From assembly GCF_003852405.1 (NCBI RefSeq), contig NZ_QAJM01000009.1, positions 299,219 to 363,218 on the forward strand: DNA of 64,000 nt, written 5' to 3'. The position numbers and the translations under genes are program-made. Each line of letters starts with the position of its first letter. The first letter of the stretch is position 1. Source of the DNA: Pseudomonas sp. KBW05 (GTDB lineage: Bacteria > Pseudomonadota > Gammaproteobacteria > Pseudomonadales > Pseudomonadaceae). Shown here piece by piece: positions 52,028-58,202 of the stretch. The notes under the pieces were generated by a model that was not told the DNA's origin, did no database searches, and saw nothing but the letters and a program-made list of their open reading frames with translations.

Positions 52028-52357
52028 TTACTGCTGATCCGGGCGGTTGACGCCAATACGCTTGGCCGCCCAACGTTCATAAAGGCCGATGGCCACGTCT
52101 GCGCCGGCCATGGCGGTCAGGCACCCCAGTGCGGCGGCGGTCCAGACCGACAGGCCGGCGGCGTACAACAGCATCACGGCCGAGACCCCGCAAACCATGC
52201 ACGCCCCAGACCGCAAGGCCAGACGACGTACCAGCGACCAGCCCCGGGCGCCTTCCTTGTCGGCGCGCCACATTTCACCGCTGACCCCGCCGATCAGGGC
52301 CAGTACGATCACCAGCCAGATCGGCATTTCCGCTAACGCTTGCTGCTCGTTTGTCAT
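52028..52357 (-). CDS. Holin (phage holin family, LydA-like)
   Basis: A 109-aa membrane protein with three hydrophobic helices (IWLVIVLALIGGVSG, MVCGVSAVMLLYAAGL, AALGCLTAMAGADVAIGLY) and short charged loops. It lets the endolysin reach the wall, releasing tailocins by lysis. AGGAGG lies 6 nt before the ATG at 52357. Its start overlaps the stop of the preceding small reading frame (ATGA). Confidence 0.9.
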   Translation of the reverse strand: MTNEQQALAEMPIWLVIVLALIGGVSGEMWRADKEGARGWSLVRRLALRSGACMVCGVSAVMLLYAAGLSVWTAAALGCLTAMAGADVAIGLYERWAAKRIGVNRPDQQ

Positions 52358-52617
52358 GTCACGCCTCCTGGCTGAGCAATGCCGGCACAGTGCCGGGGTT
52401 TGGATACTTCCGTGTGTCGGTGGGCATTCCAAAAAGCCCGGCTGCCCAGGCTTTTCAGTAATGCGTCCCGCGAACTGTCGGCGCTACTGGCGCGGTACGG
52501 TTCTTCCCTCGATGTTTTTCCGACCACGATCCCTGTCTGCCGGATAACTGCTTCTGGTGCTTTACGCTGCACACCCGGGTCAGTTGCCAACCCTCTGAAC
52601 CGTTGAGGCCGGTTCAT
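52354..52617 (-). CDS. Possible small leader protein coupled to holin
   Basis: An 87-aa basic reading frame, MNRPQRFRGLATDPGVQRKA and then SRDALLKSLGSRAFWNAHRH. The ribosome site (CAGGCAG) is weak. Its stop overlaps the holin start by ATGA, which supports translation, but I recognise no family. It could equally be a non-coding part of the holin leader. Confidence 0.4.
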   Translation of the reverse strand: MNRPQRFRGLATDPGVQRKAPEAVIRQTGIVVGKTSREEPYRASSADSSRDALLKSLGSRAFWNAHRHTEVSKPRHCAGIAQPGGVT

Positions 52618-52656
52618 CGCTGCCTGTTCTTGTCGTACGGTGTAACTAAAGAGCGT

Positions 52657-52760
52657 CGGCATCCTTGCCGGTGTTTCCTGGCGTCCTTGCCATCGCTGTG
52701 ATGGCGTCCATGCCGATGCTGCGTGCCTTCCTTGTCTTCCTTGGCAGCATCCTTGCTGCC
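52657..52760 (-). ncRNA. Array of Rsm-type ANGGAN hairpins in the tailocin leader
   Basis: The predicted RNA on the minus strand contains four stem-loops with hexaloops of the RsmA/RsmE-binding form: GGCAGC-AAGGAT-GCTGCC (52743-52760), GGC-ATGGAC-GCC (52703-52714), TGGC-AAGGAC-GCCA (52679-52692) and CGGC-AAGGAT-GCCG (52657-52670). Two further AAGGAA motifs lie single-stranded between the first and second. The GGA cores are spaced about 22 nt apart. The stretch starts some 25 nt after the expected transcription start and ends 40 nt before the small reading frame. No terminator follows, so it is a leader rather than an independent RNA. Confidence 0.6.
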
Positions 52761-52792
52761 TCCACCTAGCCTTCTTGGCTGGCTTGAGATGG

Positions 52793-52821
52793 AGAATATG
52801 CATGTATGCATATACAGTCAA
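52793..52821 (-). promoter_or_regulatory. Putative tailocin operon promoter
   Basis: On the minus strand TTGACT (52816-52821) and TATTCT (52793-52798) are separated by exactly 17 bp, a near-consensus sigma-70 promoter reading towards the holin. The spacer contains the palindromic operator and a LexA-like box CTGTATATGCATACAT. Confidence 0.75.
52796..52813. promoter_or_regulatory. Palindromic operator in the promoter spacer
   Basis: Arms ATATGCAT and ATGCATAT with spacer GT form an 18-bp dyad between -10 and -35. Two further dyads lie upstream: AATGC-N6-GCATT (52820-52835) and TTCAC-CA-GTGAA (52839-52850). These are candidate sites for the S24 repressor encoded upstream. Confidence 0.7.
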
Positions 52822-52951: not shown

Positions 52952-53686
52952 TTAGCGAGCGTACATGCCCCACCAGAACACATGGCCGAGAATGCTGATC
53001 TGCTCATCCTGGATGTCCTGGAAGCTATAGTCTTCGTCCGGGTGCTCATCGCGATTGAAACTGCGCAGGCGAATCCCGGAAGGCAGGCGATAGAGCTGTT
53101 TCACCCGCAGTTGGCCGTTGTGATTGATGGCGTACAAATCACCATCGACGATATCGCCAATCCCGCTCTTGCCCGCATTCACCCCAACCGTCGCCCCATC
53201 ACGCAGCACGGGCAGCATGCTGTTGCCACGTACGGTCACGCACTTGGCCTGGTCAAACTGCACGCCGTTATGCCGCAGGCTACGCTTGCCGAACCGCAGG
53301 CTGGCCTTTTCGCTTTCCTCGATGACGAATCTTCCTGATCCAGCAGCCAATTCAACCTCGCGCAGAAAAGGGATCGACACCTCGTCATCATTCACGGGGG
53401 TGTCGTCGTCCCACAAGCTTATGTCCTTGAGCTCCGAATGGGTTGGGTCACGCAGGTCTTCGCGCAAGGCACCAATCGCTACGCGTCCGCGCAGTTGGTC
53501 GGTGCTAACGCGAAAGTAATCGGCGATACGCGAGATGTGCTTGTCCGAGGGGTCAACGATCTTGCCGCTGAGGATCCGGGACAGCGTGGATTGAGGCACG
53601 CCAGTGCGCCGGTGAAGCTCCATGGGGGAGATCCGGTCGCGGTCCAGCAGTTCTCGTAAGACGATAGAAACGTTGCGTTTTTGCAT
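52952..53686 (-). CDS. Tailocin repressor, XRE helix-turn-helix plus S24 peptidase
   Basis: A 244-aa LexA/CI-like repressor, functionally like PrtR. An N-terminal HTH (ISPMELHRRTGVPQSTLSRI) is followed by a linker with the self-cleavage-type ELAAGSG and an S24 domain with Ser in VRGNSMLP and Lys in QLRVKQLY. RecA-stimulated cleavage would relieve repression on DNA damage. I take the ATG at 53686 (MQKRNVSIV); the longer reading starts with TTG inside an inverted repeat. The start has no clear ribosome site. Confidence 0.88.
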   Translation of the reverse strand: MQKRNVSIVLRELLDRDRISPMELHRRTGVPQSTLSRILSGKIVDPSDKHISRIADYFRVSTDQLRGRVAIGALREDLRDPTHSELKDISLWDDDTPVNDDEVSIPFLREVELAAGSGRFVIEESEKASLRFGKRSLRHNGVQFDQAKCVTVRGNSMLPVLRDGATVGVNAGKSGIGDIVDGDLYAINHNGQLRVKQLYRLPSGIRLRSFNRDEHPDEDYSFQDIQDEQISILGHVFWWGMYAR

Positions 53687-57878: not shown

Positions 57879-58012
57879 AAAAAAAAGGGGCGGTATGACC
57901 CGCCCACATTTTTTCCCTAGTCCCTGTATTCCTTTTCATCATCCTGATGAATCGCATCCTGCGACGTTCCTTCAAACCATCGTTCCTTGATGGCTGTGCC
58001 AATCCGTGGACA
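57879..58012 (-). ncRNA. rsmZ: RsmZ-type regulatory RNA
   Basis: A 134-nt RNA that should sequester RsmA/RsmE proteins. It begins near TGTCCACGGATTGGCACAGC and contains about eight GGA motifs, several in hairpin loops: CCATC-AAGGAAC-GATGG, TCGC-AGGAT-GCGA and TTCATC-AGGAT-GATGAA. It ends in a strong terminator (GGGCGG-loop-CCGCCC, then eight T). The place next to fdxA fits rsmZ of other pseudomonads. TAAGAT at 58021-58026 is the likely -10. Expression is expected to need GacA via the box at 58185. Confidence 0.93.
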
Positions 58013-58184
58013 CAGGGCTGATCTTAGAGACTTCCAAGGGAAGTTCAACGGGATCCAACCCGTGGCGTGACACGCCTGCGCGCTCTACGAAATACATTTA
58101 ATTGTTAATTTTCAACAAGTTAGAAAACTCCCTCAAGAATTCGGGACATACGTGTCTGGTAAAAAAACCAAACACTTACGAAAA

Positions 58185-58202
58185 AGTAAGCAAATGCTTA
58201 CA
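58185..58202 (-). promoter_or_regulatory. GacA upstream activating sequence for rsmZ
   Basis: Minus-strand TGTAAG-CATTTG-CTTACT matches the TGTAAG-N6-CTTACA consensus and lies about 175-190 bp upstream of the rsmZ start, the distance known for rsmZ. Confidence 0.9.

Follow-up and report, generated by a model that had tools for sequence, protein, structure and literature searches.

Tailocin operon and its leader

The window, by which we mean the whole 64,000-nt stretch of DNA analysed, was recognised as Pseudomonas DNA by its nearest relatives and by genome G000 (referred to below as its own genome). Its minus strand encodes a tailocin operon that opens with a holin gene and continues 3′ with baseplate, tail fibre, sheath, and tape-measure-like genes; a CinA-family gene was detected at 40883-40383. 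An HTH/S24 repressor gene lies upstream, and the leader (~430 nt from the predicted promoter to the holin) is situated between the repressor gene and the holin (Table 1). The promoter scan found one sigma-70-like pattern compared with 0.3 expected in shuffles, and transcription of the leader would start at the position given by this prediction. The palindrome ATATGCATACATGCATAT (52813-52796) overlaps the promoter and is probably the operator of the repressor, a role suggested by the palindrome together with the adjoining HTH/S24 gene. The combined presence of an S24/HTH repressor gene and a holin-first tail operon would be compatible with putative SOS-type repressor control.

Between the promoter and the holin, ~300 nt from the holin start, an array of GGA motifs was found. 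Its eight GGA span 52763 to 52664, and its successive ANGGA are spaced at 12, 9, 22, 23, and 22 nt. The GGA and ANGGA motifs, the count of eight GGA, and the position upstream of the holin had been put forward in the original prediction and were borne out by the motif search. AAGGA was the prevailing form: five of the six array sites in the window have it, as do 216 of the 276 sites counted over the 46 leaders aligned below. Within the window, a density of six ANGGA per 140 nt was reached, on either strand, by the array and RsmZ alone. Simulated 64-kb strands (first-order) attained six ANGGA in 140 nt in 2 of 120 cases, and no stretch with even five ANGGA in 140 nt was found outside the leaders in 1.01 Mb of real sequence (both strands, best 80 loci). 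A chance cluster of ANGGA was ruled out by these two comparisons.

Table 1. Features of the tailocin leader region and of RsmZ, in window positions
Feature	Position	Strand	Basis
Holin, first gene of the tailocin operon	52028..52357	-	PF16085, E 1.4e-52
Holin Shine-Dalgarno AGGAGG	52364..52369	-	sequence
ANGGA proximal to the ribosome site (ACGGAA), 56 nt before the holin start	52408..52413	-	sequence
Terminator-like hairpin AAAAGCC...GGGCUUUUU, leader end	52431..52455	-	sequence; absent from terminator scan output
Structured element of the leader, conserved, distinct from the array	52520..52632	-	223/399 genomes; phages
GCUCUUUAG, boxA-like	52646..52654	-	anchor, at most one change in 68 leaders (best 80 loci)
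Rsm-type array (putative), 8 GGA, 6 ANGGA	52657..52763	-	motif search, alignment
Hairpin 4, CGGC-AAGGAU-GCCG, 4 bp	52657..52670	-	folding
AAGGAT, hairpin 4 loop	52666-52661	-	array motif
Hairpin 3, GGC-AAGGAC-GCC, 3 bp, weak alone	52680..52691	-	folding
AAGGAC, hairpin 3 loop	52688-52683	-	array motif
Alternative hairpin GCCAUC/GAUGGC, excludes hairpins 2 and 3	52689..52705	-	folding
Hairpin 2, GGC-AUGGAC-GCC, 3 bp, weak alone	52703..52714	-	folding
ATGGAC, hairpin 2 loop	52711-52706	-	array motif
AAGGAA	52733-52728	-	array motif
AAGGAA	52742-52737	-	array motif
Hairpin 1, GGCAGC-AAGGAU-GCUGCC, 6 bp, robust	52743..52760	-	folding
AAGGAT, hairpin 1 loop	52754-52749	-	array motif
Predicted sigma-70-type promoter TTGACT-17-TATTCT	52793..52821	-	promoter scan
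HTH/S24 repressor gene, upstream of the leader	53722-52952		domain matches
RsmZ sRNA	57880..58014	-	RF00166, 122.2 bits

Distribution of the array among Pseudomonas

The best 80 holin loci, out of at least 383 confirmed relatives, were compared, with leaders recognised by means of an anchor in the 700 nt searched per locus. A recognisable leader was found at 68 of these loci. The original prediction had held that absence of the loops from related clusters would speak against it; this was the case for 20 of the 68 leaders, and the remaining 48 carried the array, each with five to seven ANGGA in 140 nt. The 20 array-less leaders keep the same promoter and downstream leader. The anchor GCTCTTTAG was lacking from 11 of the best 80 loci, one of which (L059) retains part of the downstream element, and the anchor match at L066 was due to chance only. 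Array bearers are mostly named as species that we take to be of the P. fluorescens kind, and three array-bearing records carry P. syringae or P. viridiflava in their titles; among the array-less leaders are those of P. protegens, P. chlororaphis, P. mandelii, P. brassicacearum, P. reinekei, and P. fuscovaginae.

A covariance model of the array was used to scan 399 Pseudomonas genomes, of which 65, including the window's own, gave a match of at least 143 bits; 19 further genomes gave weak matches only (at most 28 bits) and were left uncounted. Outside genome G099 there was one strong match per genome, and the next four matches in the window's own genome (L115-L118) scored at most 19.7 bits, with no known Rsm RNA among them. 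In G099 there is an additional, shortened copy (89 bits; L123 3347-3443) with its leader, adjoining frames that read as resolvase/transposase-like (a reading of frames without family search). Its first loop is AGGGGT, with the GGA lost, three ANGGA are left, and no holin-like frame was read after it in the stretch examined. A tree of the holin-side DNA, built by a quick method from 69 rows and left without an inferred root, has several long branches; on it the array requires two state changes, and thus one or two events. The plasmid search gave no match to the array. Ten records matched in the phage search, and the only one bearing the promoter, the Q8r1-96 prophage record, contains a leader that lacks the array; in this record (EU982300; L167 2025-2333), a gene annotated 'translational regulator Com' and another annotated gene lie between the leader and the holin.

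Conservation and folding of the array

The first alignment comprised 46 distinct leaders (45 named ones and the window, three identical named ones having been dropped). At five of the six sites none of the 20 A, G, G, and A columns varied, compared with nine of the 10 N columns, a split with a Fisher p of 7e-7 that is descriptive, as ancestry is shared between the columns. When the register was shifted anywhere between -12 and +12, this split was not seen again, and the register test is a better control than the Fisher value. The site at 52742 degenerates, with three of its four fixed columns variable and the motif lost in some of the 46 leaders. Addition of 33 further distinct leaders from 64 genome loci (the other 31 arrays were identical to those of named leaders) brought the total to 79. 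In this larger set the 16 A, G, G, and A columns of the four loop sites never held another base (one row has a 1-nt deletion), seven of the eight N columns varied, and the fifth site (52733) was changed in one row at each of three columns. In sum, five of six sites in the set of 46, and all four loop sites in the set of 79, show an ANGGA core with A and GGA fixed and N free. This is the pattern that a protein reading ANGGAN, such as RsmA/RsmE, would impose, and the proposal of a putative Rsm-type binding array gains support from this register-specific conservation in 79 distinct leaders.

The array leaders are also close to one another (93% mean column identity among the 46), so part of the conservation is general. 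This closeness would suit an explanation that does not involve Rsm, namely that the array is a purine-rich repeat, a short reading frame, or neutral sequence shared through recent descent, and a 65-codon frame at 52811-52614 does span the array. The register-specific conservation of the ANGGA sites argues against such an explanation, as does the start of the frame upstream of the predicted transcription start; a short coding frame across the array was rejected because alignment gaps of 1 and 2 nt break any frame. We consider this explanation highly improbable.

When the array stretch was folded, it did better than 200 of 200 shuffles. Hairpin 1 had a closing-pair probability of at least 0.5 in 41 of the 46 leaders, and the changes in its stem keep pairing. 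The same probability was reached by hairpin 2 (stem invariant) in three leaders, by hairpin 3 (GGC/GCC stem hardly varying) in one, and by hairpin 4 in 11, and RNA-only folding of the window itself placed all three near probability 0. The competing GCCAUC/GAUGGC hairpin, which lies between sites 4 and 5 and puts both GGA outside hexaloops, had a probability of 0.99 in the window and at least 0.5 in 23 of the 46 leaders, likewise with RNA-only folding; one of its pairs was changed on both sides in two leaders and broken in four. The four hexaloop stem-loops originally proposed were hence upheld for hairpin 1, hairpins 2 to 4 being weak and facing a rival. It is possible that all four hexaloops form, perhaps with protein bound. 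Covariation of the stems in related leaders, which had been suggested as a check, was not seen within the clade (0 of 16 pairs of the four hairpins changed on both sides), a result that is uninformative because the stems hardly vary.

Relationship of the array to RsmZ

Three CsrA homologues, RsmZ, and RsmY are present in the window's own genome; a candidate rsmX at G000:C2:134552-134673 (L180) scored 40.8 bits against a cut-off of 56. The RsmZ of the window carries eight GGA and six ANGGA, counts identical to those of the array, and would be its natural partner or competitor. The original prediction had likened the density of the array to that of RsmZ, and the counts were right; the Rfam cut-off for RsmZ was failed. 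Under permissive settings the array matched the RsmZ model RF00166 from end to end at 21.0 bits (E 0.011 for 621 bases), below the 44-bit gathering cut-off. Of 30 other array loci, 20 were compared with this model in the same way; 15 of them gave full-length sub-threshold matches at the array (E 0.15-8), and these were the only RsmZ matches in the 20 loci. Elsewhere in the window's own genome three places scored 19.4-21.8 against the model, and the array was not among the matches listed. Local alignment of the array with RsmZ gave a score of 25, compared with 16.0 +/- 2.2 for shuffled sequence (1 of 500 as high), which is most likely explained by shared motifs, and homology to RsmZ was rejected. 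As judged by these scores, the array resembles RsmZ in layout and is not a member of its family.

GacA-type boxes have the form TGTAAG-N6-CTTACA. A version with one mismatch was detected at 58185-58202, upstream of RsmZ, and served as the positive control for the box search. At the tailocin promoter this search found none, the nearest being a match with three mismatches at 53119, inside the repressor gene; seven matches were found compared with nine expected by chance. The available part of a study of strain SS101 gives the rsmY form of the box and describes RsmZ and RsmY with eight GGA, three of them in predicted loops (PMC4353343). The possibility that the array is a stand-alone Rsm sRNA gene was rejected, as no Rfam cut-off was reached and neither a GacA-type box nor a fitting terminator was found; the sole terminator-like sites from the scan were at 52935-52912 (minus) and 52709-52725 (plus).

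The equality in site count with RsmZ raises the alternative that the leader mainly acts as a sponge, titrating RsmA/RsmE in trans when the tailocin promoter fires and so freeing other Rsm targets. In a variant, the leader would possibly be a short RNA ended at the hairpin at 52455-52431, an mRNA-derived functional likeness of RsmZ. The array lies close to the 5′ end as predicted and at a distance from the ribosome site, which is in keeping with titration, and precedents are described in the accessible text of two papers: mRNA leaders that titrate CsrA (flaA, and fim as cited there; PMC4894983) and the ColE2 mRNA as a CsrA sink (PMC5916893). Against this stand the single strong match per genome outside G099, probably under repressor control, the lack of a GacA-type box at the tailocin promoter, and the uncertain gain from releasing other targets when the cell is on the point of lysis. 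Overall, we find a leader that serves mainly as a sponge unlikely.

Downstream leader element

The leader 3′ of the array (52654-52431, minus) contains GCUCUUUAG, labelled boxA-like on what we take to be the boxA consensus, and a structured element that is more widespread than the array (223 compared with 65 of 399 genomes). An rrn-type boxA pattern search of the window's own genome gave no match. The structured element was also found in two other leaders of that genome (L002 1453-1620 and L003 1501-1640) and in Pseudomonas phages near repressor genes (L168, L169, and L170, around 2501). It follows cI at a distance of 140 nt in PseuP_224 and of 1.2 kb in Medea1; in Orimi01 it adjoins a repressor-like gene. 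Exact GCTCTTTA occurs in L002, L003, and phage Medea1, and did not occur in the stretch examined of phages Orimi01 and PseuP_224. Across 11 sequences, seven of the 19 pairs in the three helices of the element were changed on both sides compared with 2.6 in shuffles, and no family matched the element in Rfam scans of the window. The element is plausibly a phage-type RNA leader with an antitermination role, and the neighbouring repressor genes suggest that the phage operons carrying it are early ones. At L059 (about -390 to -85 relative to the holin start), insertion of an inverted-repeat stretch interrupts the terminator-like hairpin.

Hairpin 4 of the array ends 2 nt before GCUCUUUAG, and a consensus fold pairs one AAGGA with UCUUU of GCUCUUUAG. 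This proximity, together with the occurrence of the element in phage leaders near repressor genes, is what would be expected if Rsm acted on the transcript and not on the ribosome, by gating antitermination or Rho entry or by shielding the 5′ end of the operon mRNA from decay. The boxA name is one that we presume, however, with the rrn-type pattern unmatched in the window's own genome, and the array-less leaders keep the downstream element, which consequently does not need Rsm. We consider action at the level of the transcript quite improbable.

Ribosome-site region of the holin

Sequences nearer the holin start were also compared, across 49 array leaders (best 80 loci and the window) and the 20 array-less leaders. 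Of the 49 array leaders, 44 had an ANGGA 34-74 nt upstream of the holin start, within two dissimilar spacers (near -56 and at -34); none of the 20 array-less leaders had one between -75 and -20. The interval was chosen after inspection of the data and the contrast varies with it: 44 of 49 compared with 7 of 20 leaders for -80 to -10, and 48 of 49 compared with 15 of 20 for -130 to -10. Among the array-less leaders, AGGGA occurs at -77 or -78 in five and an ANGGA at -13 in two. In the genome set, which overlaps the named set, the proximal ANGGA was found at 51 of 64 loci and was absent from 13. The contrast between the two classes of leader may reflect shared ancestry. The holin Shine-Dalgarno was predicted to be mostly paired in 34 of the 49 array leaders and 6 of the 20 array-less ones, though not in the window. 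The proximal ANGGA and the predicted Shine-Dalgarno pairing lean towards control in cis. Separately, folding of many relatives, the window not among them, predicted base pairing between the holin Shine-Dalgarno and an AUGCC(U)ACC(U) sequence directly 3′ of the terminator-like hairpin (52427-52364, minus). This sequence could compete with the outer stem of that hairpin, and an Rsm-independent switch is possible.

Proposed role in the timing of lysis

The motifs, position, and conservation pattern of the array are features of the sequence itself. From them we propose, tentatively and with roughly balanced confidence, that the array is an Rsm-binding platform that delays or gates SOS-induced expression of the holin and tailocin; the transcription start, Rsm binding, repression as the direction of the effect, and the delay are all inferred. 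The first ~130 nt of the tailocin mRNA would form the platform for RsmA/RsmE-type proteins. Inactivation of the S24-type repressor (SOS) would lead to synthesis of the leader, and free Rsm dimers would load on the clustered ANGGA and, where present, on the proximal ANGGA. Loaded Rsm would then hold back holin expression, through a translation block or a lowering of the transcript, for as long as the Rsm pool had not been absorbed by GacA-driven sRNAs of the Rsm type or by the leader RNA. Lysis would in this way acquire a threshold and be delayed, both in dependence on the Gac/Rsm lifestyle switch.

Several observations bear on this proposal. In its favour are the conservation pattern, the ANGGA counts of the array leaders, the proximal ANGGA (subject to the choice of interval), and the CsrA homologues, RsmZ, and RsmY of the window's own genome. 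The distance of ~300 nt from the holin start, unlike that of sites on a Shine-Dalgarno, the weak hairpins 2 to 4, the lack of covarying pairs, and the 20 array-less leaders count against it. In one in vitro assay, as given in the accessible part of the RsmQ paper, RsmE of SBW25 bound ATGGA and AGGGA hairpins effectively and not other ANGGA (PMC9928087). This preference, set beside the predominance of AAGGA among the array sites of the window and the other leaders, counts against the Rsm reading; RsmA or a different context may matter for AAGGA sites. The second copy in G099 was counted for the proposal by its lost first-loop GGA and the lack of a holin-like frame, and against it by its three kept ANGGA. 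Plasmids induce the tailocin of SBW25 through SOS, with the holin PFLU1169 as the toxic gene, and loss of gacS partly relieved plasmid cost, according to the available text of that study, whose authors explain the relief by PFLU4242 (PMC8544851). PFLU1169 is presumably a homologue of the window holin, and the direction of the gacS effect fits more free Rsm and less holin.

In a more elaborate form of the model, a captured phage weapon would have acquired, in its own mRNA, an RsmZ-like region that is decoy and target at once, the leader joining an element of the phage antitermination type with an Rsm platform of six sites. SOS lysis would fire only when transcription outruns the RsmA/RsmE pool, and meanwhile the transcript would empty that pool, giving a dual-function, self-timing switch wired to Gac/Rsm. 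This form is doubtful, if conceivable.

Release of tailocins by lysis kills the producer, and its timing affects both competition and how costly it is to carry plasmids. If the proposal is true, this suicidal release depends, through the Rsm platform, on the Gac/Rsm lifestyle switch in addition to DNA damage, and a further case is added, beside colicin E2, of a CsrA-family protein timing suicidal bacteriocin release. The conserved leader set names the exact bases to test.

Comparison with known systems

No paper joining tailocins and Rsm control was among the matches listed in searches of the open full-text literature. In the accessible portions of three related reports, a P. putida Rsm pull-down lists a 'predicted phage protein' among its targets and no pyocin or holin, a Gac paper on MFE01 has no mention of the tailocin-related terms, and the SS101 Rsm regulon contains one prophage mention and no holin, pyocin, or bacteriocin (PMC4353343). 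Rsm/CsrA-bound leaders and CsrA-timed bacteriocin lysis are known already; the place of the array, its number of sites, and the neighbouring phage-type element appear to be new to us.

Four known systems invite comparison. Lambdoid phages have nut/put-type antitermination leaders, which, like the downstream element, combine a boxA-like sequence with conserved hairpins and lie in phages near repressor genes; the downstream element differs in being separate from the Rsm array and more widely spread in the genus, and its function is a prediction. RsmX, RsmY, and RsmZ (RF02144, RF00195, and RF00166) share with the array many ANGGA at similar density, some in hairpin loops, whereas the array sits within an mRNA leader, lacks a GacA-type box, and falls below the Rfam cut-off. 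Colicin E7 is grouped with colicin E2 as a case of CsrA-timed lysis. In the SOS-induced colicin E2 operon, as described in the available parts of two papers, CsrA controls the lysis gene cel (PMC5157957, PMC5916893). As proposed here for the tailocin, this is an SOS-induced bacteriocin released by lysis in which CsrA and sRNAs set threshold and delay, and its mRNA with CsrA sites also soaks up CsrA, for which it may be likened to the tailocin leader. Colicin E2 is, however, plasmid-encoded, and its CsrA sites lie on the Shine-Dalgarno of cel; the window encodes a phage-tail particle, with the holin as first gene and a six-site ANGGA array ~300 nt upstream within a long leader. The array is likened, finally, to the Campylobacter flaA leader, which, per the accessible text, has GGA hexaloops ~21 nt apart and is both target and titrator (PMC4894983); flaA has two such loops, and the array has six ANGGA, four of them of the loop type, in a phage-derived operon.
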